In this document: positions 40,966-57,310 of the stretch, piece after piece | Numbering within the stretch: the first letter of the stretch is position 1 | Layout of the letters: every line of letters starts with the position of its first letter | Notes under the pieces: model-generated | Database searches by the model: none | What the model was told of the DNA's origin: nothing | What the model saw: the letters and a program-made list of their open reading frames with translations, nothing else | Source: Microbacterium sp. LWH7-1.2 | GTDB taxonomy: Bacteria; Actinomycetota; Actinomycetes; Actinomycetales; Microbacteriaceae | Reading direction: 5' to 3' | Assembly (NCBI RefSeq): GCF_038397755.1 | Contig: NZ_CP151637.1 | Location: 2,480,001-2,544,000, forward strand | DNA length: 64,000 nucleotides | Made by a program: the position numbers and the translations under genes

Positions 40966-41562
40966 CTATTCCTTTCCCAGAATCCCGCGGACCTCCCATG
41001 CGAGATCTGGATCGCGCCGACTGTGCTCCAGGAACTGTCTGCCGCGCGCTCCGCCCAGCTCATGGATCGGCCGGAGGAGGAGCACACGAGATGCGCCCAG
41101 CTCTCGTCGACTGGCGAGCGCAAGCAGATCGTCGAGATGATCAGCATCCGCCGCGCCAGCGAGCGCTACCGCAAAGCTGTCCCTATCTCTATCCGAGGAC
41201 GTGGTCAGGTAGAGACGCTCGAGGTCGGCCCACCAGCGAACGGCCGGCTTCACCGCGAGTGCGCGGGCTAGCCCTTCGGTGACCGCGTCGGGATGCGGCC
41301 CGTTGAGAAGATGATGCATCAAGATCGGTAGCGCCGTTGGGTATGGATCCGAGGTGTTGACGAGATCCCACACGGAGTCGACGTGCACGCCGGCAGCTCG
41401 AAGGTCACTCACGATGTGACGCTCAGCTTCGCTGTAGAACCGTGCACGCGCTGCGAGCTCATCGTCCTGCTGTCGAATCATCGCTTGATAGTCCGCGTCT
41501 TCAGCAAGGGCGGTCATAAGCTCCGCCGCAGTGATCCGCTCTCGTGCCCTCTTTTTCACCAC
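40966..41562 (-). CDS. hypothetical helical protein
   Basis: A 198-residue protein. GGGAGG before the GTG at 41562 fixes the start (VVKKRARERITAAELMTALAED). It is mainly helical: AEDADYQAMIRQQDDELAARARFYSEAERHIVSDLRAAGV, then repeated Leu-rich helices that look HEAT-like (LPILMHHLLNGPHPDAVTEGLARALAV, DDLLALASRRELGASRVLLLRPI). Such short HEAT-like proteins occur as orphans next to mobile elements. Function unknown. Confidence 0.6.
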   Translation of the reverse strand: MVKKRARERITAAELMTALAEDADYQAMIRQQDDELAARARFYSEAERHIVSDLRAAGVHVDSVWDLVNTSDPYPTALPILMHHLLNGPHPDAVTEGLARALAVKPAVRWWADLERLYLTTSSDRDRDSFAVALAGAADADHLDDLLALASRRELGASRVLLLRPIHELGGARGRQFLEHSRRDPDLAWEVRGILGKE

Positions 41563-41831
41563 GGGATCGGCCTCCCTCGAATGGGTTCCACTCCGGATCT
41601 GGCGCTCGAGCGGATCAGACGGGCGCGCTCCCGAACGGATGTAGAGACAGAAAGTGCGTTGGGTCGTACGCGCGTAGTCCAAGCTATCCCGACGTTGCCG
41701 CGTAAGGGACAGCCTGGCGACGTTCCTCACCCCACTTATGGATGTCGCGGTCATGCCATCCGCGATGCGTGAGCGACCGTTGATAGAGAAGGGAGCTTGA
41801 CCCGGTTTCCCGGACGGTTCTTGTGTGTTGA

Positions 41832-42655
41832 TCATGCCGCGATCTCTGCGGCGGTGTGAAGTGCTTCATAGTCGGCGGGGCTGAGGTAGCCGAGGGCGGA
41901 GTGCCGGCGGCGGGGGTTGTAGAAGCCTTCGATCCACTCGAACATGGCCGACGCGAGTTGCGTCCTCGAGTCCCAGCTCGTGCGGTCGAGAAGCTCGCGC
42001 TGCATGACTGACCAGAAGCTCTCGATGAGTGCGTTGTCGACGCTGGAAGCGACTCTGCCCATCGATCCGAGCAGTCCGGCCTGGCGGAGCCGGTGCCCGA
42101 AGATCCAGCTGGTGTATTGCGCACCCTGTGCGCGTGAACCACGGTCCCGGGTTCGGGTCGACGTCGCCAGCGGGCCATCTCAAGCGCGTCGACGACGATC
42201 TCCGCGGTGATCCGATCCGAGATCGACCATCCCACGATCCGCCGACTGAAGGCGTCGATGACGGCCGCGCAGTACACCCACCCGTCTCTTGCACGATGCT
42301 GCGTGATGTCGCAGAACCAGAGCCGGTTCGGGGCGTCGGCGCGGAACTGCCGCTTCACGAGATCCTCGTGCGTCGCGGTGTCCGGCTTCCAGCCGCGGCG
42401 TTTCCGGCGGTGGGAGACCCCGACCAGGCCGTCCAGCCGCATCAACCGAGCGACACGGCTGCGTGCGACGTGAACGCCGAGCCCGAGCCGCAGCTCGGCC
42501 AGCACCCGCGGCGCACCATACGTCTCCCTGGAGTCGGCGTGGATGCGCCTGATCGTTGTTGTCAGCTCCGCGTCCGTGATGGCGCGCAGCGAGGATGATC
42601 GGTCTCGCCAGTCATAGTAGCCGGAGGTCGAGACCCCGAGGAACCGGCAGGCCAC
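41832..42655 (-). pseudogene. IS3-family transposase OrfB, frameshifted (copy 2)
   Basis: Mirror of the orfB in copy 1, with the same missing G and the same Asp-to-His change at the second catalytic position (around 42,124-42,136). It is therefore not an independent loss. Confidence 0.85.
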
Positions 42656-43198: not shown

Positions 43199-43609
43199 TC
43201 AGGCGGCGGGAGCGGTGCTGCTCCCCCGTACGGCGGTTGCTTGGACCTCGACCCGGATCTCGTCCTTCGCAAGCGCTGCCACTTCCACGAGCGCACAGGT
43301 GGGGAAGTCGCCGGTGAAGAACTCGCGCCGGGCTCTCCACACCTGGGCGTTCTCGGACATGTCGGTGACGAAGATCGTCATCTGGACGACATCGTCCATC
43401 GCTGCGCCCGCGGCCTCGACGAGTGCGCGCATCTTGCGGAAGATCACCCCGGACTGTTCATAGGAGTCCGAGCCCAGGATGGTCGAACCGTCGGTACCGC
43501 GGGCGGTCAATCCTGAGATGAAGATGAATTCACCCACGCTGAGGCAGTTCGACCACATACCGGCCTCCGGCTCGCGGACGTCGGGTGAGGTGTGGCGGAT
43601 CTTCTGCAT
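43199..43609 (-). CDS. Rid (YjgF/YER057c) family protein
   Basis: A 136-residue trimeric-fold protein with VGEFIFISGLTARGTDGST, FRKMRALVEAAGAAMDDVVQMTIFVTDM and PTCALVEVAALAKDEIRVEVQATAV. In RidA the Arg in PARSCVEVA binds the substrate carboxylate; here the position is Cys (PTCALVEVA). Imine deamination of the RidA type is therefore doubtful. Rid relatives serve as 2-aminomuconate deaminases or lyase partners in ring-degradation pathways. It is the last gene of a leftward catabolic run and begins one base after the cupin stop. Confidence 0.88.
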   Translation of the reverse strand: MQKIRHTSPDVREPEAGMWSNCLSVGEFIFISGLTARGTDGSTILGSDSYEQSGVIFRKMRALVEAAGAAMDDVVQMTIFVTDMSENAQVWRARREFFTGDFPTCALVEVAALAKDEIRVEVQATAVRGSSTAPAA

Positions 43610-43610
43610 A

Positions 43611-44048
43611 TCAGTCAGTTCCTTCGTCTGCGCGCTTAGCCACGAAGTCACCGATCGTGTCGGCGGTGTGGAACTCGGGGATCTCGTAGTAGTGGGGTCC
43701 GTCATAGATCTCGATGAGCATGCTATGAGTGTGGGCCAGCGTCGGACCGTGCGGGTGGTCCTTCGGGTTCATGTAGAAGGAACCGGGGCGCAGGCGGATC
43801 TCGGAGTCGACGTACTCGTAGTCGCCCTCGAGGCAGTACATGAACTGATTCGACGCGTGCGTGTGCTTGATGGGGATGCGACCGCCCGGCGCGAATTCGA
43901 GGAGGGCGATGCTGGCCCCCGTCTCCGGATTCTTGTGCAGGAAGTACTGCCGCAGCCCGTACTCGGGGAAGTCGATCCACTGGGACTCTTCGAGATCCGT
44001 GTCGTGGATAAGACGTTCCAGCGACGGAAGGGACGGTGTCGATTCCAT
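43611..44048 (-). CDS. cupin domain protein
   Basis: A 145-residue single-cupin protein. ALLEFAPGGRIPIKHTHASNQFMYCLEGDYEY carries motif 1 with His/His/Glu-type metal ligands, and RLRPGSFYMNPKDHPHG carries motif 2. Cupins of this kind act as small dioxygenases, isomerases or hydrolases of ring-cleavage products. The ATG follows the RraA stop by one base, so it is translationally coupled. Confidence 0.85.
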   Translation of the reverse strand: MESTPSLPSLERLIHDTDLEESQWIDFPEYGLRQYFLHKNPETGASIALLEFAPGGRIPIKHTHASNQFMYCLEGDYEYVDSEIRLRPGSFYMNPKDHPHGPTLAHTHSMLIEIYDGPHYYEIPEFHTADTIGDFVAKRADEGTD

Positions 44049-44049
44049 A

Positions 44050-44778
44050 TCACTCCAATTCCGGACGGCCCGCTGCCGACCATTGTTCGTATAGTTCCCG
44101 CGTGGCGGGTGTCGGTGGCAGCACGTCGAGGATGGACGCGCCCCGGCGGATTTCCGCGGAGGCGAACACCTCGTAGTCCTCGGCATCCGCGGTGGCCTCG
44201 GCCACCGACTCCGCCAGGTGACGCGGGATGACCACCACACCTTCTGTGTCCCCGACGATGACGTCCCCTGGGTAGACGGCCACGCCCCCGCATCCGATCG
44301 GCTCTTCGAGTGCCACCGCGTGGAACGCGAGCGGCGTCGCCGGCCCCGCATTCGCGCGCTGGAACGCGGGAAGACCCGTCGCGCGGATACCCGCGGTGTC
44401 GCGAAATCCCCCGTCCGTCACAACACCCGCGGCTCCGCGCGTGCGCAGCCGAAGCGCCATCAGGTCTCCCATGGACGACGCCGCAGGGGACCCCTGCGCA
44501 TCGATGACGAGAACGCCGGACTCGGGGCACTCCTCGATCGCTCGGCGGTGCAGGTTCTCCGGCTGCGCGTAGCTCGCCATCGAGTCCAGGTCCTCCCTCG
44601 AGGGGATGAACCGGAGAGTGTACGCCTCCCCCACCATCGACGGCTGACTGCTGTCCAACGGTGCGACGTCGCGCATCATCGTCCGACGCAGACCCCGCGC
44701 CAGCAGGATGTTGGCGATGGCCGGCGTGCTCGCGCTCGCGAGGATCGAGCGCGTTCGTTCATCGAGCAGCGCCGTCAT
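44050..44778 (-). CDS. RraA family protein (HMG/CHA aldolase or oxaloacetate decarboxylase type)
   Basis: A 242-residue RraA-like protein. The core GVLVIDAQGSPAASSMGDLMALRLRTRGAAGVVTDGGFRDTAGI has the G-D-Lx4-A-x-RGAxGxxxDGxxRD pattern of class II pyruvate aldolases of the LigK type. In those enzymes Asp and Arg bind the metal and pyruvate. VYPGDVIVGDTEGVVVIP is the other hallmark. In meta-cleavage routes such enzymes split 4-hydroxy-4-carboxy-2-oxoadipate-like acids into pyruvate and a second keto acid. It fits the last step of the cluster. Confidence 0.9.
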   Translation of the reverse strand: MTALLDERTRSILASASTPAIANILLARGLRRTMMRDVAPLDSSQPSMVGEAYTLRFIPSREDLDSMASYAQPENLHRRAIEECPESGVLVIDAQGSPAASSMGDLMALRLRTRGAAGVVTDGGFRDTAGIRATGLPAFQRANAGPATPLAFHAVALEEPIGCGGVAVYPGDVIVGDTEGVVVIPRHLAESVAEATADAEDYEVFASAEIRRGASILDVLPPTPATRELYEQWSAAGRPELE

Positions 44779-45179
44779 CCGGTACCCGACCCCGTGCGTT
44801 TTACCGGGATGGACGCCCACTCCCGGAGCATCCATCCACCGTCGGGCGAGACCCACACCGCCAGGAATGCCAGGTCGAGCACGCGGCGCGCGCCGCCGAT
44901 CTCCAGGTCGAGGACGACGCGTCCGCGGATGGTGGCCGTGTCGCCGAAGACCCACGCAGCGTGGCGCGTGAGGTCCACTCCGTGGTACCCGGTACGGCCG
45001 GACGCGATCGACTCCACGAAGGAGTCCTTCGCCTCCTCCACTCCCGAGGAATGGATGTATACGAAGTCGTCGTCGAGTAGCGATTCGAGGACGACGGCGT
45101 CTCCCGCCGCAAGGGCGTCGAGCCGCAGGTCGTCGCGCGCGATAAGCGCGGTGACGACGTCTTCCGAATCGGAGGTCAT
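44775..45179 (-). CDS. NTF2-like / DUF4440 family protein
   Basis: A 134-residue cone-fold protein. RDDLRLDALAAGDAVVLESLLDDDFVYIHSSGVEEAKDSFVESI and ATIRGRVVLDLEIGG..VLDLAFLAVWVSPDGGWMLREWASIP show the DUF4440 pattern. Such proteins can be isomerases or dehydratases of ring-cleavage products. It overlaps both neighbours as ATGA, so it is part of the operon. Confidence 0.85.
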   Translation of the reverse strand: MTSDSEDVVTALIARDDLRLDALAAGDAVVLESLLDDDFVYIHSSGVEEAKDSFVESIASGRTGYHGVDLTRHAAWVFGDTATIRGRVVLDLEIGGARRVLDLAFLAVWVSPDGGWMLREWASIPVKRTGSGTG

Positions 45180-46132
45180 GCCGATCCCTGCCGTTCCGCG
45201 ACGTAGGGCGTCGCCTGCGTCTGCCACGACAACGGAGGCGGCGTTCCCCAGCCGCCCAGCCCGGAGAGGGAGAGGGAGGACTTCAGCCAGCGTACCGGTT
45301 CGACTTCCAGGTCCATCGACTGGTAATGGTCGGTGAACAGTTCTACCCGGTGGCCGTCGGGATCGCGGAGATAGAGGAACGGCGCATTGCTCGGACCGAA
45401 GTGACGCTCCGGACCGTACTCGACGTTGGCGCCGAATCCGTTAGCGGCCGCCACATCCGCAGCCCGGAATAGTCCCGCGACTTCGGGGACGAGCACGCCG
45501 AAGTGATGCAGCTTAGGGCCGTCACCGGCGACGATGGCGACATCATGCGGGTTGCCCTTGCGCTGCATGAAGGCGAACAGCATCTCGGCGTCGTCGTCGT
45601 CCTCGACATACTCGGTCAGACGGAATCCCATGGACCCGTAGAACTGAGCAGTCACGGGCACGTCCCCGGTCAGGATCTGCACATGGTCGAATCGCTGGAC
45701 CGCCGCACCCCGGAACAGGTCGTACCTCTCGGACAACCGGGGCGCCACGTCCATCGACGCGCAGAACTCGAGCGGGGTGCCTGCCGCATCCTCGGTGTGG
45801 AGGGTGCGTCCCTGGAAGGGCCGATCCACCCACTGCACGGGGGCCCCGACGGTGTACAGGTGATCCGCGAGATGGTCGAGGTCCCCATCCATCATGACCC
45901 GATAGCCGACGCGGGCACAGCCGATATCTCTTCCGGCCGTCAGGACCAGGCTGTGGTGCGCGGTCTCGCCCAGGCCCCGGAGATACAGCGTGTCCGAGTC
46001 CTGGCAGGTGAGGATGTAGCCCATCGTCTCGACCCAGAACGCCTGCGCCGCCGCGAGGTCGCTCACATGCAGAACGACATGGCTCGCCCGGGTGATGAGG
46101 AATCTCGGTCGGAGGTTGATGGTGGGAAGCAT
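45176..46132 (-). CDS. extradiol ring-cleavage dioxygenase, homoprotocatechuate 2,3-dioxygenase-like
   Basis: A 318-residue type I extradiol dioxygenase with two vicinal-oxygen-chelate domains. The iron ligands can be placed at His150 (FDHVQI), His210 (LHHFGV) and Glu264 (GHRVELFTDHY), close to the spacing in Brevibacterium homoprotocatechuate dioxygenase (155/214/267). HDVAIV supplies the second-sphere His near 197. The C-terminal lid (WGTPPPLSWQTQATP) also matches that enzyme. It cleaves a catechol next to the hydroxyls. The exact catechol is unknown. It overlaps the upstream monooxygenase stop. Confidence 0.9.
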   Translation of the reverse strand: MLPTINLRPRFLITRASHVVLHVSDLAAAQAFWVETMGYILTCQDSDTLYLRGLGETAHHSLVLTAGRDIGCARVGYRVMMDGDLDHLADHLYTVGAPVQWVDRPFQGRTLHTEDAAGTPLEFCASMDVAPRLSERYDLFRGAAVQRFDHVQILTGDVPVTAQFYGSMGFRLTEYVEDDDDAEMLFAFMQRKGNPHDVAIVAGDGPKLHHFGVLVPEVAGLFRAADVAAANGFGANVEYGPERHFGPSNAPFLYLRDPDGHRVELFTDHYQSMDLEVEPVRWLKSSLSLSGLGGWGTPPPLSWQTQATPYVAERQGSA

Positions 46133-47709
46133 CACCGCAGAGCCGACCTGTTCGTGAGGATGCTGACGTCGTCGGGGTTGATGAGGTCGGGCACGGTCCA
46201 GCCGTCGAGATCGTACTCGTCCATCGCCGACTGCGCGAAGTCTTTGCAGTGCTGCAGGACACCCGTCGACATCGCGTCGAACAGTGCGAGCTGGCGGGTC
46301 GTGTCGTTGCTGCCGATGTAGTTGATCTCGTACAGCTCGTGCCGGGATCCGAACTCCGTGCCGATCGCGTCCCAGAGCAGCTTCATGACCTTCACCCGCT
46401 CTTCCGCGTCGATGCCGTGGCTCCCGCGCAGATACGTGTCGAGGTATCCGCGGATCTCCGCGGATTTGAAGTCACTGGTGTGCGAGTTCAGATAGATCAG
46501 CCCGCTCGCCACCACCTGCTCGATGATGTTCTTGATGATGGGCATCGCGATTTGATTGATCACCCGGTACGCGCCCACAGGGGCCGGATCCGGGAGCACC
46601 ATGCCCTGATGCCAGTGCACGGCGCTCTTGGCCATGGCGTCGGAGAGCGCCCAGAAGGTGTTGCGCCATGCGATCACCTCGCCGAGCTGCGACTTCACTC
46701 CGTGAAACTCCCCGGCTCCGGTGATCTCAAGCGCCTTCGACAGCGCCCCCACCAGGAAATCCAGCTTCACTGCGAACCGTGTGCACCCGTGGAGCGCGGC
46801 GCGCTCGGCCTGGCCGGACTTGGCGGTGAACCTGTTCGCCTGCTCCAGGTCGTTGTGGATGAAGACGTCTTCCCAGGGAACGAAGACGTCGTCGAGCACG
46901 AGGATCGCGTCGTTCTCGTCGAGCCGGCTCGACAGCGGGTAGTCGAACGGGCTGCCCAGCACCGCCGCCCGGTACTCGTTCGACACCCGGCCTATCAGCT
47001 TCACCCCCGGCGCATTCGTCGGCACGATGAACACCGGCGCATACGCCGGATCCTGGACGGCCACCGGACCGATGTGTCCGACATAGATGTACTGCGTGAG
47101 GGCGGCTCCGGTGGCGACCACCTTCGCGCCCGACACGTAGATGCCCTCGGCGGTCTCCCGCGTCACGTGCATGAACACGTCCTTGCCCGCATCCGGGCCC
47201 GAATGCCGATCCACGGGAGGGTGGATGATGGCGTGTCCCATGAACCAGGTGCGCTCCTGCGCCTTCCGGTACCAGCGCTCGGCGTTCTGCTGGAAGCGGC
47301 CGAAGAACGCCGAGTTCGGACCTAGTGTGGCGAGGAAGTAGCTCTTGTAGTCGGGGGAGCGGCCCATCCATCCCCACCCGATCCGCTGCCACTCCGCGAT
47401 CGCATCCCGAGACGCGACCTGCTCCTCGATCGATGACGGCGCCCGATAGAACCGATGCGTGAACCCACCCCACTCCGTCGGCACCGTCAGAGTGTCCTTG
47501 CGCAGCGGATCATGCAACGCGTCATACATCCGCGCGATCATCCGCGCCGAGTTCCGAAACGCCGGATGCTCCGCAACGTTCTCCACCCGCTCGCCGTAGA
47601 TCCACACCTCACGCCCGTCATTCAGGCTCCGCAGATACTCCTCCCCCGTGAAAGGAACAAAGCTCTCCGCGGACCCCATCGCCTCCGTGGACACCAACGC
47701 ATCTGTCAT
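46132..47709 (-). CDS. HpaB-type flavin-dependent monooxygenase, paralogue A
   Basis: A 525-residue large component of a two-component monooxygenase of the 4-hydroxyphenylacetate 3-hydroxylase family. It has an N-terminal helical/beta domain (TGEEYLRSLNDGREVWIYGERV) and the FADH2 region (GVKLIGRVSNEY, LDDVFVPWEDVFI). The C-terminal four-helix part has GEVIAWRNTFWALSDAMA. GGAGAG precedes the ATG. It introduces a hydroxyl group into a phenol, giving the catechol for the next gene. Paralogue B at 51,744 has the same length and is identical for residues 1-122. It then differs in blocks at about 123-144, 158-163, 206-218, 290-306, 362-391 and 470-490. Confidence 0.92.
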   Translation of the reverse strand: MTDALVSTEAMGSAESFVPFTGEEYLRSLNDGREVWIYGERVENVAEHPAFRNSARMIARMYDALHDPLRKDTLTVPTEWGGFTHRFYRAPSSIEEQVASRDAIAEWQRIGWGWMGRSPDYKSYFLATLGPNSAFFGRFQQNAERWYRKAQERTWFMGHAIIHPPVDRHSGPDAGKDVFMHVTRETAEGIYVSGAKVVATGAALTQYIYVGHIGPVAVQDPAYAPVFIVPTNAPGVKLIGRVSNEYRAAVLGSPFDYPLSSRLDENDAILVLDDVFVPWEDVFIHNDLEQANRFTAKSGQAERAALHGCTRFAVKLDFLVGALSKALEITGAGEFHGVKSQLGEVIAWRNTFWALSDAMAKSAVHWHQGMVLPDPAPVGAYRVINQIAMPIIKNIIEQVVASGLIYLNSHTSDFKSAEIRGYLDTYLRGSHGIDAEERVKVMKLLWDAIGTEFGSRHELYEINYIGSNDTTRQLALFDAMSTGVLQHCKDFAQSAMDEYDLDGWTVPDLINPDDVSILTNRSALR

Positions 47710-47892
47710 TCGAACTCTCCACTCCCGGCGAAACCGCCGCCCGCACACCCTCGGACCACACCAACCCGGCCCGTCGCGCCCATCATCACCAGAGCACCAC
47801 CCCCTCCGAAACACCGATCCGCCCCACAACCCCGAAGTGTGCGCGCAACGGACGACACCCAACGCGAAATGGATCGCACCCCGAAGGGCGCT
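46132..47892 (-). repeat. left arm of ~1.76-kb inverted repeat
   Basis: Contains paralogue A and the 183 bases before its ATG. The upstream 183 bases are the same in the arm at 51,561-53,321, after which similarity stops abruptly. A base-level mosaic of identical and diverged blocks runs through the coding part. Confidence 0.9.
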
Positions 47893-47909
47893 TCAGCAGA
47901 CTCGTGACG

Positions 47910-48827
47910 ATGATCGTCTTCCGCGACCCCGACACGGTGCCGCGCGACTTCGGTCCGTCGATCGTCGTCGTCGGCAAATTCGACGGCGTGCACGCCGGCC
48001 ATCGCGCGATGATCGATCACGCCCGCGCACTCGGGGATCACCGGCGCGCGCAGATCGCCGCCGTTACTTTCGACCGCAATCCGCTGCGGACGCTCCGCCC
48101 CGAGTCCTGGCGAGGCGACCTAGTGACGCCCGAGCAGAAAGCCCGATTGCTGGCGGATGCGGGAGTGGATGCGACGCTGATGCTGCGGTTCGATCACGAC
48201 CTCGCGGCCCTGTCTCCCGGCGAGTTCGTCGAGAGGTTCCTCGTCGAGGGGGTGCACGCGTCCCATGTCGTGGTGGGACACGACTTCCGTTTCGGAAAGG
48301 GCGGAGCGGGCGACGCGAAACTGCTGCGTCGCGCAGGAAGGACGTTCGGGTTCGGTGTCGACGTGATCGAGAACGTCCGAGTCGTGGGCGTTGACCGACG
48401 CGTGTCTTCGACCTGGATTCGGTCACTCGTGCGTCAAGGAGACGTGGATCTGGCCGGTCGCCTGCTCGGACGACCGCCATCGGTGTCCGGTGAGGTCTCG
48501 CGCGCGCGTCGGAGCGGCACCGAGTCTCGGTTCAGCGTCGCACAGCTGTCGACATCCATGGACGGCATTCCTCCGGCCGAGGGCGTCTATGCCGGTTGGC
48601 TCGTCGGCGGCTGCGCAACCTGGCCCCGCGGTGACGATCATCGCGCGGTGATCACCGTGAGCAACCCGAAGTCCGTTGCCGCATCCGGGGATGGCCCCGT
48701 GATCCGTGCTCGCGTGCGCGGCCAGGCCGCGGTCGACCTGCTCGGACAGCGGGTGGATGTGCGGTTCACGGAGCGTCTGACGGATGTACGGTCATCCGTT
48801 CCCTCGCCGTCCGGCCGCAGCACGTAG
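47910..48827 (+). CDS. RibF-like FAD synthetase with degenerate flavokinase domain
   Basis: A 305-residue protein. The N-terminal FMN adenylyltransferase half is intact: VVVGKFDGVHAGHRAMI (HxGH), AAVTFDRNP, VVGHDFRFGKGGAGD and the end motif STWIRSLVRQGDVDLAGRLLGRP. In the flavokinase half, GVYAGWL is present, but the usual GxPTANL and NxGxxPT segments are not recognisable. It may supply FAD only, or feed flavin to the monooxygenases around it. Its location in the spacer of the monooxygenase inverted repeat supports this. The start is uncertain (GTG at 47904 or ATG at 47910). Confidence 0.8.
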   Translation: MIVFRDPDTVPRDFGPSIVVVGKFDGVHAGHRAMIDHARALGDHRRAQIAAVTFDRNPLRTLRPESWRGDLVTPEQKARLLADAGVDATLMLRFDHDLAALSPGEFVERFLVEGVHASHVVVGHDFRFGKGGAGDAKLLRRAGRTFGFGVDVIENVRVVGVDRRVSSTWIRSLVRQGDVDLAGRLLGRPPSVSGEVSRARRSGTESRFSVAQLSTSMDGIPPAEGVYAGWLVGGCATWPRGDDHRAVITVSNPKSVAASGDGPVIRARVRGQAAVDLLGQRVDVRFTERLTDVRSSVPSPSGRST

Positions 48828-49796
48828 CGTGTCTGAGGGCGACTCACCGAACTTCTCCCGGTAGGCGGCGGCCATCCGGCCGAGGTGGGTGATGCCGTGC
48901 CGTGCCGCAACCGCGTACACGGACGTGTCTGCGGAACCGACGTAGAGATCCCGATACACGGCCTCGAGCCGGCGATTGCGCACGTAGGCGATCGGACTGA
49001 CGCCCAGTTCCCGCTGGAAGCGAATCTGCAGGGCACGAATGCTCATATGCGTCGCGGAGGCGATGTCGAGCACGCCGATCGGAGAGTCGAGATGTGCGTC
49101 GATGAACTCGAGCGCGCCCCGCATCGACGGCACCGCCTCCACGTCGGCGGGTGCGTGCCCGTCGCCGCGCACGACCAGTAGCCCGTCGACGATCAGGTTC
49201 TCGAAGTAGCCGATCGCACTCGGCAGCGACAGCATGAAAGCGCCCGCGTCGAGGTCGGCGACGCCGGTACGCACCAACTCCATCCACGTGCGGCCGGCAC
49301 CGTCGGTGACATCCAGCACACCGGGAAGGGCTCGGCCGAGCTCGTCCGCCCTTCCCGTCCCGGCGAACTCGTGCAGCCTCTGCTCTACTAGGGCCGGGGG
49401 AATCTTCACCAGCAACCGGGCGCAGTTCGCGCTGTACTGGAGGCGGCTGGTCACGTGGCCCGGTTCGGTGATGACGGCCGTGCCGACCTTCGCCTCGAGA
49501 CGTTCACCGTCCCTCAAAATGCGCATGGAGCCCTGGAGGGGAATCTGCACGAGGTAATAGGGCTCGTAGGGAGACTGCAGGTGGATCGTGAGTTCCGCCC
49601 CGTAGTTGATGTAGAGGAGCGTGAGACCGCCGACGCGCACCGCGTTGTGGGTCAGATCCAGGTCCCCGCTGACGTCGACGACGCGGTGAAGGGAGAGCGT
49701 GCGAGCGACGCTCTGCTCGGCTTCCTGGACATGGCCGGTTCTCGCTCGCTGGTACGCAGCGAGCAACGGCGGCCCTGGATCTACGTGAGTGTTCAT
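48792..49796 (-). CDS. AraC family transcriptional regulator
   Basis: A 334-residue regulator of the AraC/XylS, AraC-binding-like type. Residues 1-210 form the effector and dimerisation domain (YYLVQIPLQGSMRI is typical). The C-terminal double HTH has GVLDIASATHMSIRALQIRFQRELGVSPIAYVRNRRLEAV and YAVAARHGITHLGRMAAAYREKFGESP. It probably activates the flanking catabolic operons in response to the aromatic substrate. Its 3' end overlaps the ribF-like gene convergently by 36 bases. Confidence 0.92.
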   Translation of the reverse strand: MNTHVDPGPPLLAAYQRARTGHVQEAEQSVARTLSLHRVVDVSGDLDLTHNAVRVGGLTLLYINYGAELTIHLQSPYEPYYLVQIPLQGSMRILRDGERLEAKVGTAVITEPGHVTSRLQYSANCARLLVKIPPALVEQRLHEFAGTGRADELGRALPGVLDVTDGAGRTWMELVRTGVADLDAGAFMLSLPSAIGYFENLIVDGLLVVRGDGHAPADVEAVPSMRGALEFIDAHLDSPIGVLDIASATHMSIRALQIRFQRELGVSPIAYVRNRRLEAVYRDLYVGSADTSVYAVAARHGITHLGRMAAAYREKFGESPSDTLRAAAGRRGNG

Positions 49797-49969
49797 ATCG
49801 CCATCTGTCTGGAGCCGGTGGGAGTCCGGACGGTGAGGCAGAGCTGCGCGAATGCGTGCGGAAAGGATAACCCCGCTGGATGAGAAGCACCACCGGGCGC
49901 TGGCCGCCGAGGCGAGGGGCCCCGCACCGAAGACGATGCGAAGCCCCTACGGCCGGATCCGTCGAGCCC

Positions 49970-51463
49970 TTACGCCTCGGTGAGGGCCGTCTTCTCGTCG
50001 GTGAACGCGGTACCGGTCCCCTCCGGCAGGATGCGGCGGAGGATCGGGTAGACCACGATCGTCGCCGCGAAAGAGGCAAGGAACCCGAGCGGCCAGATGT
50101 TCGCCACCATGAGGACGATGCCGAGCACCGCGGCGCCCACGAGTGTGATGATCCCCGCCCAGTTGAAGCTCTCGATCCGGTGCGTGCTCCTGTCGAACTT
50201 CCCTCGCCGGACGATGTAGTAGTCGGCGATCATCACCCCGCACAGGGAGAACGTAATCGCTCCGAGGTACGCCAGCCAGGCGACGAACGAACCCAGGATG
50301 CCGGCGCCGATCATGATCAGCGCGATGATGTTCCCGACGATGACCATGGCCGCCCGGGGCACTCGCCGGTTGGTGACGGTCTGGACGAGGTTCACCAGAG
50401 CGAGCGAGCCGCTGTATGCGTTCATCGCCTGCGCTTTGGCCTGTGCGGCGAAGATCGTCACGAATCCGAGCCACCCTGCGACGACGACGAAGAACGCGCC
50501 AGTGTTGCCCATCGCGTATCCGCCGGCCATCACTGCGGCCTCCTCGACGGTGAGGCCGGGCTGCTGCGCCATCAGGAACTGGATCATGGTGGGCATCGCC
50601 GCGACGACGACCACGGCGCCGAGGACACTCATGACCAGGCTCTGCACGGCAGGTCCGGATGCGGCGAGGATCGTCACGTCCCTGCGGGTGCGCGCGAAGC
50701 GAGCCATGTCGGTCGTCACCAAGGCGACCGCGGCTCCCGTGGCGCCGGCGAGGGCCACGACGGCCTCGATCTGAGCCCAGGCACCTCCGGGGACGATGCC
50801 TGGTGTGGTGAATACGGCCTCCCACGTCGCTCCGCCGGAGGTGAAGTTCTGAACGGCGACGATCACCGCGACGACGAGCGTGATGACGATGAGGATTCCC
50901 GAGGCGCGAAGGGCGAGCCTGAGGCCGAAGATGGCGAGCAGGATCCACGCGATCGTCAGGACGGCGTAGACACCGATCTTCGTGACCCAGGTGTCGTCCC
51001 AGCCGAAAGCCACGAGAGTTCCCTCGTAGAGGAGGGAGCTCTCCAGCGCTAGGAAGCCCAGGACCATGAAGGCGAAGATCCCGGCGGCGAGAGCCGACCC
51101 CCGGAACCCCAGGCCGAAGTAGCGGGCGGTGATGGTGCTGGAGACACCGGTCCGGTGCGCCATCCGTCCGAGGAGATCGCCGAGGATGAATCCCATCGCC
51201 CCGACGATGAGGCCTCCAATGAAGGCGTTCCAGAACCCGGCGAGGATGACCGAAAAGCCGGCGATGGCGAAGATCACGAGCGCGGTGACGACACCGATCG
51301 TGCTGAGCGAGAGCTGCCATCCGCTCTGTCGGTGCTCGGCGGGAACACTGACCAGCGCATGGTCTTCCGCGGTCTCCGCGAGGGTTCGCTTGGTCGGGGG
51401 CGTTGGCTGACGCGATGAAGCGTCGCCGGTGCCGTCGAGCGGCTTCCGAATGGGTGCGGACAT
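49970..51463 (-). CDS. NCS1-type (cytosine/purine/allantoin) permease
   Basis: A 497-residue transporter with about twelve membrane helices. A hydrophilic 50-residue start leads to GWQLSLSTIGVVTALVIFAIAG. Other marks are TGVSSTITARYFGLG and TTDMARFARTRRDV, followed by a late FSLCGVMIADYYIVRRGKF, which is the hallmark loop of NCS1 carriers. GAGAGGTGG lies before the ATG at 51463. NCS1 members take up nucleobases, hydantoins and small ring compounds, so it may import the pathway's substrate. It is transcribed towards the araC gene. Confidence 0.9.
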   Translation of the reverse strand: MSAPIRKPLDGTGDASSRQPTPPTKRTLAETAEDHALVSVPAEHRQSGWQLSLSTIGVVTALVIFAIAGFSVILAGFWNAFIGGLIVGAMGFILGDLLGRMAHRTGVSSTITARYFGLGFRGSALAAGIFAFMVLGFLALESSLLYEGTLVAFGWDDTWVTKIGVYAVLTIAWILLAIFGLRLALRASGILIVITLVVAVIVAVQNFTSGGATWEAVFTTPGIVPGGAWAQIEAVVALAGATGAAVALVTTDMARFARTRRDVTILAASGPAVQSLVMSVLGAVVVVAAMPTMIQFLMAQQPGLTVEEAAVMAGGYAMGNTGAFFVVVAGWLGFVTIFAAQAKAQAMNAYSGSLALVNLVQTVTNRRVPRAAMVIVGNIIALIMIGAGILGSFVAWLAYLGAITFSLCGVMIADYYIVRRGKFDRSTHRIESFNWAGIITLVGAAVLGIVLMVANIWPLGFLASFAATIVVYPILRRILPEGTGTAFTDEKTALTEA

Positions 51464-51560
51464 GGTCCACCTCTCTTGCCTGGATGGTGCTTCTGGTGGG
51501 ACTTCTTTCGGGTACCCCTGGACGTCATCGATCACAGGTGTTTAGCGGGACTCTAGGGAC

Positions 51561-53321
51561 AGCGCCCTTCGGGGTGCGATCCATTTCGCGTTGGGTGTCG
51601 TCCGTTGCGCGCACACTTCGGGGTTGTGGGGCGGATCGGTGTTTCGGAGGGGGTGGTGCTCTGGTGATGATGGGCGCGACGGGCCGGGTTGGTGTGGTCC
51701 GAGGGTGTGCGGGCGGCGGTTTCGCCGGGAGTGGAGAGTTCGAATGACAGATGCGTTGGTGTCCACGGAGGCGATGGGGTCCGCGGAGAGCTTTGTTCCT
51801 TTCACGGGGGAGGAGTATCTGCGGAGCCTGAATGACGGGCGTGAGGTGTGGATCTACGGCGAGCGGGTGGAGAACGTTGCGGAGCATCCGGCGTTTCGGA
51901 ACTCGGCGCGGATGATCGCGCGGATGTATGACGCGTTGCATGATCCGCTGCGCAAGGACACTCTGACGGTGCCGACGGAGTGGGGTGGGTTCACGCATCG
52001 GTTCTATCGGGCGCCGTCATCGATCGAGGAGCAGGTCGCGTCTCGGGATGCGATCGCGGAGTGGCAGCGGATCGGGTGGGGATGGATGGGCCGCTCCCCC
52101 GACTACAAGGGAGCCCTGCTCGCCACCCTCGGCGCCAACGCGCAGTTCTACCGCGGTTTCGAGGATAATGCGCGGCGCTGGTACCGCAAGGCGCAGGAGC
52201 GCACGTGGTTCATGAACCACGCCATCATGAACCCTCCCGTGGATCGGCATTCGGGCCCGGATGCGGGCAAGGACGTGTTCATGCACGTGACGCGGGAGAC
52301 CGCCGAGGGCATCTACGTGTCGGGCGCGAAGGTGGTCGCCACCGGAGCCGCCCTCACCCACTATTCGCACATCGCGCACATCGGCCAGGTCGCGATCCAG
52401 GATCCGGCGTATGCGCCGGTGTTCATCGTGCCGACGAATGCGCCGGGGGTGAAGCTGATAGGCCGGGTGTCGAACGAGTACCGGGCGGCGGTGCTGGGCA
52501 GCCCGTTCGACTACCCGCTGTCGAGCCGGCTCGACGAGAACGACGCGATCCTCGTGCTCGACGACGTCTTCGTTCCCTGGGAAGACGTCTTCATCCACAA
52601 CGATCTCGAGCGCGCGAATCGCTACGGCGTCGAATCAGGGATGCTTGAGCGTTCGTCGATCCACGGGTGCACACGGTTCGCAGTGAAGCTGGATTTCCTG
52701 GTGGGGGCGCTGTCGAAGGCGCTTGAGATCACCGGAGCCGGGGAGTTTCACGGAGTGAAGTCGCAGCTCGGCGAGGTGATCGCATGGCGCAACACCTTCT
52801 GGGCGCTCTCCGACGCCATGGCGAAGGGGGCTGTGGAGTGGAACGGGATGATCCTCCCCGACCGCGAAGCGGCCGGGGCATATCGCGTGCTGAATCAGAT
52901 CGCGATGCCGAAGATCAAGAACATCATCGAGCAGGTGGTGGCGAGTGGGCTGATCTATCTGAACTCGCACACCAGTGACTTCAAATCCGCGGAGATCCGC
53001 GGATACCTCGACACGTATCTGCGCGGGAGCCACGGCATCGACGCGGAAGAGCGGGTGAAGGTCATGAAGCTGCTCTGGGACGCGATCGGCACGGAGTTCG
53101 GATCCCGGCACGAGCTGTACGAGATCAACTACATCGGCAGCAACGACGCCACACGGCAGACCAACTTGTTCTCGGCGATGGGAACGGGTCTGCTCGAGCG
53201 CTGCAGAGACTTCGCGCAGTCGGCGATGGACGAGTACGACCTCGACGGCTGGACCGTGCCCGACCTCATCAACCCCGACGACGTCAGCATCCTCACGAAC
53301 AGGTCGGTGAACCGTGTCTGA
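51561..53321 (+). repeat. right arm of ~1.76-kb inverted repeat
   Basis: Mirror of 46,132-47,892. The boundary lies at the bases GCGCCCTTCGGGG (from 51562), matching the complement at 47,879-47,891. Confidence 0.9.
51744..53321 (+). CDS. HpaB-type flavin-dependent monooxygenase, paralogue B
   Basis: A 525-residue paralogue of the enzyme at 46,132, opening the rightward operon with the flavin reductase. Residues 1-122 and several later blocks are identical to A. The blocks GALLATLGANAQFYRGFEDNA, NHAIMNPP, THYSHIAHIGQVAI, ERANRYGVESGMLERSSI, GAVEWNGMILPDREAAGAYRVL and ATRQTNLFSAMGTGLLERC are different. These are the regions around the active site and helical core by position. The two enzymes therefore probably use different phenols but share a fold and regulation. 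The stop lies eight bases inside the flavin reductase gene. Confidence 0.92.
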   Translation: MTDALVSTEAMGSAESFVPFTGEEYLRSLNDGREVWIYGERVENVAEHPAFRNSARMIARMYDALHDPLRKDTLTVPTEWGGFTHRFYRAPSSIEEQVASRDAIAEWQRIGWGWMGRSPDYKGALLATLGANAQFYRGFEDNARRWYRKAQERTWFMNHAIMNPPVDRHSGPDAGKDVFMHVTRETAEGIYVSGAKVVATGAALTHYSHIAHIGQVAIQDPAYAPVFIVPTNAPGVKLIGRVSNEYRAAVLGSPFDYPLSSRLDENDAILVLDDVFVPWEDVFIHNDLERANRYGVESGMLERSSIHGCTRFAVKLDFLVGALSKALEITGAGEFHGVKSQLGEVIAWRNTFWALSDAMAKGAVEWNGMILPDREAAGAYRVLNQIAMPKIKNIIEQVVASGLIYLNSHTSDFKSAEIRGYLDTYLRGSHGIDAEERVKVMKLLWDAIGTEFGSRHELYEINYIGSNDATRQTNLFSAMGTGLLERCRDFAQSAMDEYDLDGWTVPDLINPDDVSILTNRSVNRV

Positions 53322-53883
53322 CATCGCGTGGAATCAGGAGATCTACGATTTCGCGGACCTCGCTCTCGCCGGGCACGAGCCGGAGGCGGCGGGAGAGTTC
53401 GACGTCCGCGCCTTCCGTCGGATGATGGGGGGCTTCGCGACCGGAGTGGTGGCGGTGACGTATGAGTCCGACGGGCAACTGTACGGAATGACCGCCAATT
53501 CGTTCACCTCGATCTCTTTGACCCCTCCGCTGGCGATGGTCTCGCTGATGCGGTCGTCCCGGTCGCTTCAGTACCTGCTGGATCGCCCGTTCGCGATCAA
53601 CGTGCTCGCCGCAGTTCAACTCGACGTCGCGCTCCACTTCGCCCGCAAGGAGAACGGCGCAGAGCCGCTCTGGCTCACCGACGGCCGCGCGCCGCGACTG
53701 GCCGGCGCGGTGGCGACCATGCAATGCACGCCGTGGGCTGCGTACCCAGCGGGCGACCACATCCTCGTCCTCGGGCGGATCGCGGAGTTCGAGGACAATG
53801 AGGAGCTGGCTCCGCTGGTATACCAGCGCGGCTCGTGGACGGGCCTCACCGCTCGGACAGCGCAGACGGAGGCCACGACGTGA
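53314..53883 (+). CDS. flavin reductase (HpaC-like small component)
   Basis: A 189-residue flavin reductase domain protein. FRRMMGGFATGVVAVTYESDGQLYGMTANSFTSISLTPPLAMVSL is the classical FMN/FAD-binding block. SRSLQYLLDRPFAINVLA and GDHILVLGRIAEFE follow. It should reduce flavin with NAD(P)H for the monooxygenases. The N-terminus has an extra 30 residues (SDIAWNQEIYDFADLALAGH). The GTG start overlaps the monooxygenase by eight bases, and its stop overlaps the next gene as GTGA. Confidence 0.93.
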   Translation: MSDIAWNQEIYDFADLALAGHEPEAAGEFDVRAFRRMMGGFATGVVAVTYESDGQLYGMTANSFTSISLTPPLAMVSLMRSSRSLQYLLDRPFAINVLAAVQLDVALHFARKENGAEPLWLTDGRAPRLAGAVATMQCTPWAAYPAGDHILVLGRIAEFEDNEELAPLVYQRGSWTGLTARTAQTEATT

Positions 53884-55082
53884 GTACGCTCGCCTCCTCG
53901 GTCGACTCCGTCGACGGACTCCGGGACTCGCTGGCGGGCCTCAGTCTTCTCTTTAGGTCGGAGGCCGACGAGAGCGATCGGATCCACCGCCCCACGCCCC
54001 TCGTCCAGCAGGCGCTTCGCAGGTCGGGCGTGCTCCGCCTCCTGCTCCCGAAGGAGTTCGGCGGCCTCGAAGCGAGCCCGCCCGTGATCGTTGAGGTCAT
54101 CGAGACCATCGCCCATGCGGACGCATCCGTCGCGTGGCTCGTGCGCGCTCTGATCAGCGAGACGGCGGTCGCGGCGTCCCGGTTGACGTTCAGCACGGCT
54201 GCCGACCTGTTCAGCACGCCGGGGTCCGCGGTCATCGCGGGAGTGTCGCGGGGCGAGTCGGGCGTGGGCGCCCTCCTCGACGACGGGAGCGTGCGCATCA
54301 GCGGACGATGGCGATACGTGCCCGGCATCTCGATGGCGAGCCACGTCAACCTGCCAGTCCGCGTGCCCGGCGTCCCGACCCTCGTGTGCGTGGTTGCGCG
54401 TTCGGAGGTCACCGTCAACGACAACTGGGAGATGCTGGGACTGAGCGCCTCGGGCGCCTTCGACGTCGAGGCACGCGATGTGGTCGTGCCGGGCCATCTG
54501 ACATTTCCGCGAGACGGTTCGTTCGTGTCCCGGGGAAACCACGTCGACCGGTTGGGTGCGCCGATCCTCGCCAGTATCAATCAGGCGGCATGGGCACAGG
54601 GGATCGCGCGTCGGCTGCTCGACGAGCTCGCGAGCTACGTGGAGCACCGGCCGCAGGGCAGGAGCGGTGTACTGCCCGAGGAGTTCTTCGTCGATTTCGC
54701 GCGCCACCACGCGCAGGTCCGGTCGAACCGCATCCTGCTCGAGGATTCGTTGCGCTCCGCCCAGGACGCCCTCGAAACTGGCAAGAAACTTCCGGACGAG
54801 GTCGAGACGATAATCCGACTGGCTGGAGGACTCTCGACGCAGTCGGCGGTCGACATCAGCCAGTTCGCCCACCGCTTCGCCGGCGTTCACATCGTGCGCA
54901 ACGGTCCGCTTCAGCGCATCTTCCGGGACGCCCACACGGGCGCGCAACACCGGGGATCGAGCACAGCCGTGGCTCGCCACGCGGGGATGCTCCTCTCGGG
55001 GAGCCTCGCATCGGGGAGCGGCTGGTCGCGATTCGACGCGGTGCACACCTCCGGCCCGGACGCGGACGAGGTCGGGGAGTGA
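53880..55082 (+). CDS. acyl-CoA dehydrogenase-like flavin-dependent monooxygenase
   Basis: A 400-residue protein of the acyl-CoA dehydrogenase fold. SGVLRLLLPKEFGGLEASPPVIVEVIETIAHADASVAW is the N-terminal helical domain. ISGRWRYVPGISMASHVNL is the beta domain, and ARHHAQVRSNRILLEDSLR with FAGVHIVRNGPLQRIFRDAHTGAQHRGSS is the C-terminal helical bundle. The last motif is like those of the HsaA/DszC/SadA group D monooxygenases rather than true dehydrogenases. With the reductase next door it probably hydroxylates a ring or cleaves a heteroatom bond. The GTG overlaps the reductase stop by four bases. Confidence 0.87.
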   Translation: MSTLASSVDSVDGLRDSLAGLSLLFRSEADESDRIHRPTPLVQQALRRSGVLRLLLPKEFGGLEASPPVIVEVIETIAHADASVAWLVRALISETAVAASRLTFSTAADLFSTPGSAVIAGVSRGESGVGALLDDGSVRISGRWRYVPGISMASHVNLPVRVPGVPTLVCVVARSEVTVNDNWEMLGLSASGAFDVEARDVVVPGHLTFPRDGSFVSRGNHVDRLGAPILASINQAAWAQGIARRLLDELASYVEHRPQGRSGVLPEEFFVDFARHHAQVRSNRILLEDSLRSAQDALETGKKLPDEVETIIRLAGGLSTQSAVDISQFAHRFAGVHIVRNGPLQRIFRDAHTGAQHRGSSTAVARHAGMLLSGSLASGSGWSRFDAVHTSGPDADEVGE

Positions 55083-55924
55083 AGCTCGCGACGGTCCGAG
55101 TCGGTGAGACCACGACCGCCGCACGTGCGACGGAAGACGGATTCGCGCCGATCGAGGGGTATCCCGATCTCAGCACGCTCCTGCGGGATCCCGACTGGAT
55201 GGACCGCGCACGTGCGGCAACGGTGGTTTACGAGTACGGGAATGCGGGTGAGGGGCTGGGCCTGCCACTGCCGACGCCTGGGAAGATCATCTGCGTCGGA
55301 CACAACTACCGCGGTCACATCCTGGAACTCGGCCGGCAGCTGCCGACCCATCCGACCCTCTTCGCCAAGTTCCCGGAGACGCTGACCGGACCGGGCGAAC
55401 CGATCGTGATTCCCGAAGAGGATCCCCAGACGGATTGGGAGGGCGAACTGGCGGTCGTCATCGGCGCGGAGGCATACCGGGTCCCGGTGGAGAGGGCGAG
55501 CGACGCGATCGGCGGATACACGATCGCCAACGATGTGTCGATGCGTGGATGGCAGAACCGCACGATCGAATGGCTGCAGGGCAAGATCTGGTACGGTTCG
55601 ACGCCGCTCGGGCCCCTCATGGTCACCCCCGACGAGTTCGACGCGACCGACGCGTTCATCAGCACTCTCGTGAACGGCGAACGAGTGCAGCACCATGCCA
55701 TCTCCGACATGGTGTTCTCCCCCGCCGCCCTCGTGTCCTACATCTCGACGATGCTGCCGCTGCATCCCGGCGACGTCATCCTCACCGGCACACCGGGCGG
55801 AGTAGGGCATGCGCGGACCCCTCCCGTGTACCTGCAACCTGGAGACCGCGTCGAGGTGACGATCGACGGGATCGGCACACTGTCCAACCTGATGGTGCGC
55901 GCCAACGAGGCGAAGCCGGTCTGA
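55079..55924 (+). CDS. fumarylacetoacetate hydrolase family protein
   Basis: A 281-residue FAH-family enzyme. KIICVGHNYRGHILELG opens the catalytic domain. The metal ligands lie in EGELAVVIG (Glu), GYTIANDVSMRGWQ (Asp) and further acidic residues. The end has LHPGDVILTGTPGGVGHARTPPVYLQPGDRVEVTIDGIGTLSN. FAH-fold enzymes in aromatic pathways hydrolyse acylpyruvates or act as decarboxylases/isomerases of the HpaG kind. The GTG overlaps the previous stop, so four genes from 51,744 on are one coupled operon. Confidence 0.92.
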   Translation: MKLATVRVGETTTAARATEDGFAPIEGYPDLSTLLRDPDWMDRARAATVVYEYGNAGEGLGLPLPTPGKIICVGHNYRGHILELGRQLPTHPTLFAKFPETLTGPGEPIVIPEEDPQTDWEGELAVVIGAEAYRVPVERASDAIGGYTIANDVSMRGWQNRTIEWLQGKIWYGSTPLGPLMVTPDEFDATDAFISTLVNGERVQHHAISDMVFSPAALVSYISTMLPLHPGDVILTGTPGGVGHARTPPVYLQPGDRVEVTIDGIGTLSNLMVRANEAKPV

Positions 55925-56973: not shown

Positions 56974-57310
56974 GTGAGAGCAGCCGGAGGTCCATCGCCC
57001 GAGATCGTCGAGGTGGAAGCAGCGGATGACCTAGACGTCGCGATTGTGCGCTACGAGGCCATTGCTGAGGAGCAGAGTCTGCAGCAGATCGAGGTCTCGA
57101 GGGTCGACCGGACGGTGGCCGGTCGGTACGAAGATTGCACCGCGATCGGCTATTCCGACGCGATGCGCGACTCCACAGCGCATGTGCGGGCTGAGCACGA
57201 ATTCCACGGAACCATCTACGCGACGGATGATCACGCACTTGGGTATCTGCTCGCAACGGAGGCTCTCAAGGCGACCGGGATGGCCGGCGGCAGCTCCGAC
57301 GGCAGCCAAG
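56974..57310 (+). CDS. unrecognised frame of doubtful coding status
   Basis: A frame of about 110 residues (EIVEVEAADDLDVAIVRYEAIAEEQ...AGRYEDCTAIGYSDAMRDSTAHV...ATDDHALGYLLATEALKATGM) has plausible composition but no family I can name. It overlaps the decayed end of the livF remnant, so it may itself be a gene fragment brought in by the same rearrangement. Confidence 0.3.

Follow-up and report, generated by a model that had tools for sequence, protein, structure and literature searches.

The window, a 64,000-nt stretch of the Microbacterium sp. LWH7-1.2 genome, carries two hpaB genes for the oxygenase component of a two-component flavin monooxygenase, copy A on the minus strand (46132-47709) and copy B on the plus strand (51744-53321). 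Each consists of 525 codons plus a stop, and the Pfam domains HpaB_N and HpaB cover nearly the full length of both products (E values of 1e-60 to 4e-86). Against the equivalog model TIGR02310 (HpaB-2), copies A and B scored 652.6 and 661.3 bits, both under the cut-off of 885.2, and they are therefore relatives of 4-hydroxyphenylacetate (4-HPA) 3-monooxygenase that are not assignable to 4-HPA. The catalytic residues of Escherichia coli HpaB, given as R113, Y117 and H155 in an excerpt of PMC6506529, are all retained in both copies as R117, Y121 and H159.

The two genes head outward-facing operons. Copy A is followed on the minus strand by an overlapping gene for an HpaD-like extradiol dioxygenase (45176-46135; TIGR02295 score of 280.4 bits, under the cut-off of 321.4) and by DUF4440/SnoaL-like, RraA-like, cupin and RidA-like genes (43199-45227). 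The B-side operon (53314-55924, plus strand) encodes a flavin reductase, an acyl-CoA-dehydrogenase-like protein and an FAA-hydrolase-like protein. As befits a two-component system, the flavin reductase gene (Flavin_Reduct; 53314-53883) overlaps the end of copy B, and its product is a candidate partner of both oxygenases. Three main open reading frames occupy the spacer: a RibF-like FAD synthetase/riboflavin kinase (47904-48827, plus strand; Pfam FAD_syn and Flavokinase), an AraC-family regulator (48792-49796, minus strand), whose best NCBIfam match, AndR, fell below its cut-off, and an NCS1-type permease (49970-51535, minus strand). Breakdown of riboflavin or lumichrome, a pathway brought to mind by the RibF and NCS1 neighbours, gained no support: the main text of PMC12746152, as far as it was available, has 0 occurrences of hpab, rida and permease. 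A search of 51500-51760 for a sigma-70-type consensus gave no hit, which is little informative.

Clusters with a single hpaB occur in Streptomyces, Arthrobacter, Nocardioides and others (L007-L011, L013, L015, L018, L019, L051 and L057). In these, hpaB is followed by RraA-like, cupin, RidA-like and NCS1 permease genes, and most also have flavin reductase, acyl-CoA-dehydrogenase-like and FAH genes, as here. Whereas these clusters have one hpaB within the fetched stretch, here there are two outward operons, with hpaB and its upstream region duplicated. A VOC-family gene behind hpaB in L057 encodes a distant match to the HpaD-like protein of the window (29% over 108 amino acids).

The original prediction described the two 525-codon genes and the 183 bases before each as mirror images, and both lengths and coordinates proved right. 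Upstream identity extends for exactly 183 bp on either side and, together with codons 1-122, which had been claimed to be identical also in DNA in the parts compared, forms a single exact tract of 549 bp (47344-47892, minus strand, in arm A; 51561-52109, plus strand, in arm B). Up to the stop codons, the arms are identical in 1624 of 1764 aligned columns, and 3668 nt separate them. Six shared blocks total 1382 bp and contain 2 mismatches; between them lie five islands, each 38-121 bp long. Downstream of the 549-bp block lies island 1 (codons 123-163; B 52110-52230, A 47223-47343), followed by shared block 2 (127 bp; B 52231-52357, A 47096-47222), island 2 (codons 205-218; B 52358-52395, A 47058-47095), shared block 3 (208 bp; B 52396-52603, A 46850-47057) and island 3 (codons 287-306; B 52604-52659, A 46794-46849). 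Shared block 4 (163 bp; B 52660-52822, A 46631-46793) precedes island 4, which contains a 3-bp indel (codons 360-391; B 52823-52913, A 46537-46630). Shared block 5 (234 bp; B 52914-53147, A 46303-46536) and shared block 6 (101 bp; B 53207-53307, A 46143-46243), with one silent mismatch each, enclose island 5 (codons 469-489; B 53148-53206, A 46244-46302). The variable blocks sit where the original prediction had placed them, although its list needed refinement to five islands and a 3' tail: segments 123-144 and 158-163 form one DNA island, since the stretch between them, although identical in amino acids, has silent differences in codons 148 and 154. An assembly artefact is thought unlikely, as the genome is a single contig.

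The islands and the rest of the genes differ sharply at silent sites. In the islands dS was 1.18 and dN 0.30, whereas in the rest of codons 19-505 dS was 0.008 and dN 0, a roughly 150-fold silent-site contrast; dN/dS in the islands was about 0.25 and did not exceed 1. An even spread of synonymous differences, named beforehand as speaking against the proposal, was not seen: among codons specifying identical amino acids, silent changes affected 34 of 77 in islands versus 3 of 394 outside (Fisher p = 6e-27, with island limits taken from the same A/B comparison). In 20000 shuffles of the 90 differing codons, neither the longest run nor the sum of squared runs ever came up to the value in the real pair; restricted to silent changes, 11 of 20000 shuffles matched the longest run and 0 the sum of squares. 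The clustering is thus non-random, far beyond chance. The longest exact in-gene run between A and B is 366 bp; in 33 pairs of relatives with comparable overall identity (0.88-0.95), the longest such run was at most 275, with a median of 64. Two complete tandem hpaB pairs in other genomes showed an even dS (island/scaffold 0.61/0.66 and 0.85/1.10) and exact runs never longer than 33 bp.

Because silent sites in the islands are nearly saturated, a recent duplication followed by point changes or point selection is ruled out. A dS of 1.18 in the islands against 0.008 elsewhere instead marks an old gene pair with a recently homogenised scaffold. Blocks of silent-site identity alternate with diverged blocks, as gene conversion predicts, and conversion between the arms, as originally proposed, is the simplest reading of the contrast; the tandem pairs elsewhere lack such a contrast. 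A similar mosaic would arise if the duplication were recent and one or both copies had received their islands as short pieces of a diverged homologue, through transformation or another kind of transfer, with no continuing conversion between the arms. Such import predicts the same pattern and accords with a scaffold almost unchanged (2 silent differences). It also gains from the silent sites of the A islands, where dS was 0.64 to Arthrobacter L007, 0.83 to Streptomyces L051 and 1.18 to B, distances that derive from about 88 sites and to which a common C-ending codon habit may contribute. The A islands are closer at these sites to L007 and L051 than to B, a misfit with simple duplication within the lineage. 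In addition, codon habit alternates inside both copies, which, with segment limits chosen after looking at the data, hints at older recombination with another, outside sequence.

Other observations weigh against import. One genome-collection scan gave 48 loci, none of which qualified as an island donor, and as to silent donor cassettes of the antigenic-variation style, the genome itself showed, besides A and B, only 32 short matches with E values of 0.01 or weaker (40 of 175 candidates scored). An amino-acid tree of the islands alone, computed without L037_13027 and L041, set A and B together apart from the others (99% ultrafast bootstrap; branches of 0.50 and 0.18), although long-branch attraction may account for this grouping of two long branches. 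We also considered copy A as a member of a second hpaB class, which stands beside class I in loci of Paracoccus, Nitratireductor and Rubrivivax. At all 14 strict diagnostic positions copy A lacks the residue of class II, which speaks against import as well, and the island tree joining A to B contradicts this assignment, too. At the variable sites 133, 294, 305, 370 and 477, copy A has residues typical of class II. Moreover, selection would still be needed for imported pieces to land in specificity segments, and we consider import an unlikely origin of the pattern. Genome-collection searches (48 loci from one scan) returned no second genome with the gene pair; the identical scaffold is an observation from this one genome, for which concerted evolution would be a candidate reading.

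Divergent islands could also persist with no selection at all if conversion starts only in stretches that are already similar and the islands resist strand exchange. We assessed this, like the class-diagnostic positions above, with 33 relatives, drawn from 54 extracted genes after removal of L031, L035, the partial L037_13027 and genes below about 66% identity; several of the 33 are near-identical. Family-wide entropy was 0.70 in the islands versus 0.48 elsewhere (10 of 487 rotations as high), and comparisons between class I and class II, labels that we set from identity and island residues, showed the same trend (identity of 0.586 versus 0.739). The islands are thus more variable across the family, and such a mechanical barrier could contribute. 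Accordingly, the very variable 20-residue windows 279-298, 359-378 and 479-498 (0.74-1.17) contain 5, 8 and 5 A/B changes. Yet five other variable windows (59-78, 79-98, 219-238, 319-338 and 419-438; 0.61-0.76) contain none and window 159-178 (0.71) only 2; by contrast, 9 and 5 changes fall in windows 119-138 (0.32) and 299-318 (0.34), which are conserved. Furthermore, 43 of the 209 residues invariant in the relatives fall in islands, and all breaks at such residues, 10 in A and 5 in B, lie within islands, whereas a leave-one-out analysis over the relatives gave 41 breaks, only 5 of them in islands. A barrier of this kind seems to us an improbable sole explanation, on a par with import.

The placement of the islands relative to published pocket and specificity positions points to selection. 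Of 13 such positions, 12 lie inside islands (rotation mean of 3.3), a number reached in 9 of the 499 rotations, among them the true one. Positions 376 and 377 are one residue numbered both ways in a review, and 292 and 376/377 are Pseudomonas aeruginosa numbers read as E. coli numbering; dropping 377 left 11 of 12 positions in islands, again with 9 of 499 rotations. Copies A and B differ at 6 of the 13 (hypergeometric 0.0008) and agree at 7, six within islands and one outside. The equivalents of E. coli V158 and N159 (162 and 163, island 1) and of 292, M293 and Y301 (island 3) differ, and island 2 overlaps the counterpart of the E. coli substrate loop, residues 207-217 in the excerpt of PMC6506529. 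Island 4 spans the equivalents of 376-379, at which A and B are alike. The equivalents of I157 and A211, which had the strongest effects in an alanine scan of pocket sites, are the same in both copies, and as 5 of 7 pocket sites in that scan gave no clear change (PMC10384689), not all 13 are proven specificity sites. The proposal that selection keeps blocks touching the substrate or flavin different therefore fits segments 158-163, 205-218 and 287-306 well; the published positions in 360-391 do not differ between the copies, and codons 123-144, half of island 1, and island 5 hold none of the 13 positions. That selection maintains the island differences is supported but not proven.

The spacer is flanked by 549 bp of perfect inverted identity, a length that suffices for homologous recombination. 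The arms had been suggested to flip the 3.7-kb spacer and thereby change which operon lies beside the regulator. With the identical 183-bp upstream regions inside the arms and travelling with them, a flip would leave either operon behind the sequence it had before, and the AraC protein would act in trans, so that inversion would be nearly silent for regulation; we regard such a switch as very improbable. Crossovers in the internal shared blocks would, besides inverting the spacer, swap upstream islands between the operons, so that chimeric pockets could be tried while conversion holds the upstream region and scaffold identical. A device of this sort is only slightly less doubtful. Under it, islands 123-144 and 469-489 might prevent subunit mixing of the two enzymes; segment 469-489 lies in the region of the E. 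coli HpaB C-terminal arm, which wraps the dimer partner according to the excerpt of PMC6506529.

Collectively, we favour, with a probability of roughly 0.6, old HpaB-type duplicates whose scaffold has been homogenised by conversion while the islands were protected by different substrate specificity. An ancestral gene for a flavin-dependent HpaB-type ring hydroxylase would have been duplicated long ago, and the duplicates would have come to head two outward-facing operons within one aromatic-degradation cluster. The inverted arms would recombine, one being repeatedly copied onto the other, and the upstream region and protein scaffold would thereby stay identical. Conversions overwriting certain short segments would be lost, presumably because these segments give the enzymes different substrate specificity.

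Duplicate genes homogenised by conversion except at selected sites are known from theory and from animal cases, such as the opsin and Rh blood group pairs. The duplicate aromatic-catabolism genes catIJF and pcaIJF of Acinetobacter are likewise kept alike by conversion, with near-uniform identity, the same reaction and no known protected islands; the hpaB pair resembles them as duplicate catabolic genes and differs in its islands. Mammalian duplicate pairs of the former kind are covered in PMC2720389. As in converted animal duplicates, identical stretches are broken by short divergence peaks where the jobs of the copies would differ; unlike them, the present case concerns a bacterial catabolic enzyme with inverted arms, five islands per 1.6-kb gene and near-saturated silent divergence in the islands. 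Swaps of the Acore subdomain of NRPS adenylation domains, hormaomycin included, as outlined in an excerpt of PMC8097286, are similar in that recombination holds part of an enzyme constant and varies the substrate-specifying part. There, to judge from that excerpt, the Acore stretch is exchanged, whereas in the hpaB pair several islands are left untouched and the scaffold between them is exchanged. Gene conversion that spares protected patches is a process already known, and the A/B pair would be a clean example of it. If selection protects the islands, recombination marks the scaffold segments that set substrate choice, and these would include 123-144 and 469-489, for which the literature used gives no pocket position. 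The pair is also a compact test of enzyme specialisation against homogenising gene conversion.

Two outward-facing hpaB-type genes of 525 codons each, copy A (46132-47709, minus strand) and copy B (51744-53321, plus strand), lie within a single-contig genome of 4,446,169 bases, in the window spanning positions 2480001-2544000 (G+C content of 67.7%). Both products contain the Pfam HpaB_N and HpaB domains, and their TIGR02310 (4-hydroxyphenylacetate 3-monooxygenase) scores of 652.6 (A) and 661.3 (B) bits fall under the curated cut-off of 885.2. With B as the query, the closest solved structures by sequence were chlorophenol 4-monooxygenase (4oo2) and E. coli HpaB (6qyh, 6eb0). A repeat search placed the inverted arms 3668 nt apart; the 183 bp ahead of both start codons are exactly identical, and the identity extends no further. 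In the base-level alignment of the arms, 1624 of 1764 columns were identical, and the perfectly matching tracts 25 bp or longer measured 549, 127, 208, 163, 32, 201, 33, and 67 bp. Merging these tracts across single silent changes yielded six shared blocks (1382 bp in total, 2 mismatches), separated by five DNA islands of 121, 38, 56, 91-94, and 59 bp. The alternation of identical and diverged blocks described in the original prediction is thus real and unusual; however, its variable blocks at codons 123-144 and 158-163 are not separate but form one island, because codons 148 and 154, which lie between them, differ silently.

The synonymous differences were concentrated in the islands and not spread evenly along the genes: among codons for the same amino acid, 34 of 77 carried a silent change in the islands compared with 3 of 394 elsewhere. 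Nei-Gojobori estimates for A versus B were dS 1.18 and dN 0.30 in the islands and dS 0.008 and dN 0 in the rest of codons 19-505. When the 90 differing codons were shuffled over 526 columns, none of 20000 shuffles gave the 122-codon run (the longest seen was 71); with silent changes only, the longest run was reached in 11 of 20000 shuffles and the sum of squared runs in none. The island dS between B and the Streptomyces (1.02) or Arthrobacter (1.24) gene was comparable to that between A and B, and the scaffold, the remainder shared by both copies, showed dS of 0.97 and 1.01 to the same genes. The islands therefore diverged long ago, whereas homogenisation of the scaffold is recent. Tandem hpaB pairs from relatives lacked this contrast, with dS of 0.61 in island and 0.66 in scaffold columns in Paracoccus (locus L028; longest exact run, 27 bp) and of 0.85 and 1.10, respectively, in Nitratireductor (L030; 33 bp). 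The remaining same-locus pairs reached 41 bp (L037, one gene partial) and 32 bp (L044), and the longest exact run inside the A and B genes is 366 bp. Among pairs of relatives, the longest run was 275 bp (two Advenella genes; median, 64) in 33 pairs with an overall identity of 0.88-0.95 and 68 (median, 25) in 339 pairs with an identity of 0.65-0.75. Collectively, the silent-site contrast and the tandem-pair controls argue for gene conversion between the arms, as had been proposed, and make this sequence-based reading well supported. The process behind the mosaic is of a known kind, and our literature search, mostly outside subscription journals, found no described case for a bacterial aromatic hydroxylase.

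To relate the islands to the substrate pocket, we mapped 13 positions linked to the pocket or to specificity (157, 158, 159, 210, 211, 212, 292, 293, 301, 376, 377, 379, and 462 in E. coli numbering) in PMC6506529, PMC10816480, PMC10384689, and PMC7201708. Twelve of these 13 positions lie inside the islands, which cover 128 of 499 positions; a rotated island pattern reached 12 in 9 of 499 rotations, the true one counted, and dropping 377, a doublet of 376, left 11 of 12, again with 9 of 499 rotations. None of the 13 mapped to codons 123-144 or 469-489. A and B differ at six of them (158, 159, 212, 292, 293, and 301) compared with 51 of 499 positions overall (hypergeometric, 0.0008), and at three of the seven non-catalytic pocket residues given in PMC10384689 (0.026). 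The other seven of the 13 are the same in both copies, including 157 and 211, the two sites that mattered in the alanine scan of that study, and the catalytic trio is kept in both. Across positions 19-505, 209 residues do not vary in a set of 33 relatives, and 43 of these lie in the islands. A breaks 10 and B breaks 5 of the 209, all in the islands (Fisher, 5e-8 and 3e-4); omitting each relative in turn gave 41 departures, 5 in the islands. By these island-only departures, both pockets have diverged from the family, with A further removed than B. That selection on specificity keeps the islands different, as originally predicted for the pocket blocks, is likely in light of the 12 positions and the broken invariant sites, but it is unproven, and positive selection is not demonstrated by dN/dS because the island value for A versus B is about 0.25. 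Resistance of divergent DNA to recombination, by which the islands would have escaped conversion, is a fair rival because variability across the family is higher inside the islands than outside them (0.70 versus 0.48; 10 of 487 rotations as high); it is weakened, however, by variable windows that lack A/B changes and by conserved windows that are full of them.

A tree of island residues set A and B apart from 52 others (99% ultrafast bootstrap), on branches that are both long (0.50 and 0.18, respectively), and this grouping may reflect long-branch attraction. Fitting this history less neatly, A's islands were nearer at silent sites (about 88) to the Arthrobacter (0.64) and Streptomyces (0.83) genes than to B's islands. 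Mosaic import of the islands would also produce this nearness; however, a search of the own genome, with 40 of 175 candidates scored, gave, besides A and B, short weak matches only and no donor fragment. The habit of C-ending codons common to A's islands and these two genes would reduce the dS figure. Along both copies, stretches rich in G-ending codons take turns with C-ending ones: the block variance exceeded the shuffled mean 2.5-fold and 3.2-fold, a level that none of 2000 shuffles attained, and a second test gave 0.0012 and 0 of 5000 shuffles for the two copies. Inside the shared blocks, this second-level mosaic shows at fourfold codons as a G share of 0.75-1.0 in some stretches and 0-0.6 in others. 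Such alternation (<0.01) was found in 1 of 15 other window genes, by a runs test also in the cupin gene, and in 3 of 53 relatives. One possible reason is older recombination with a third sequence.

Searches of overlapping samples turned up no second genome with the A/B pair: among other genomes, matches were found in none of 365 from the genus (E value of 1e-190), none of 397 in the family sample (1e-200), 1 of 393 in the class sample (1e-200), 2 of 395 in the order sample (1e-190; 57-58% identity), and 2 of 147 relatives (1e-100; 51-54% identity). A genome-collection scan, which may omit entries for this genome or ones close to it, returned 48 loci with 52-83% identity, the top ones from Streptomyces and other actinobacteria, followed by proteobacteria. 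Two hpaB genes of different classes, as assigned from identity and island residues, lie close together in Paracoccus (L028, 8003-11515), Nitratireductor (L030, 6970-11512), and Rubrivivax (L037, 10001-13938). In many relatives, hpaB is followed by RraA-like, cupin, RidA-like, NCS1 permease, flavin reductase, acyl-CoA-dehydrogenase-like, and FAH genes, and a Streptomyces plasmid record is annotated with this order, including genes for a VOC-family protein and for an aldehyde dehydrogenase. In the window, by contrast, the gene set is divided between the two hpaB copies: HpaD-like dioxygenase, DUF4440/SnoaL-like, RraA-like, cupin, and RidA-like genes lie downstream of A; flavin reductase, acyl-CoA-dehydrogenase-like, and FAH genes lie downstream of B; and the permease, RibF-like, and AraC regulator genes lie between the arms. 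The cupin and RidA-like ORFs adjoin (43199-44351), and the aldehyde dehydrogenase found between them on the plasmid is missing there. Just past the RidA-like gene is a transposase-like ORF (41684-42655; HTH_21 and part of rve), presumably of the IS3 type. Another ORF (40966-41835) weakly matches Tox-REase-7, a restriction-endonuclease-fold domain, and short adjoining ORFs at 57266-58342 contain ABC ATPase pieces, one of the branched-chain-amino-acid type, that are perhaps decayed or frameshifted.

The 549-bp perfect inner tracts could invert the spacer. The suggested role of this inversion as a regulatory switch is not supported and is unlikely, because the identical 183-bp upstream regions sit inside the arms, so that a flip would give neither operon a new upstream sequence, and because AraC works in trans; a crossover in an internal shared block would also swap islands between the copies. 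The dioxygenase behind A (45176-46135) is a distant relative of the plasmid VOC gene, sharing 29% identity over just 108 residues, and at a threshold of 1e-15 it matched nothing in the Streptomyces or Arthrobacter loci, which suggests that A is coupled to a different ring-cleaving enzyme. Judging from the paired hpaB genes of Paracoccus, Nitratireductor, and Rubrivivax, some hpaB clusters seem to use two hydroxylases. A different ring-cleaving enzyme would suit a different substrate, and the A operon may lead into another type of ring cleavage.
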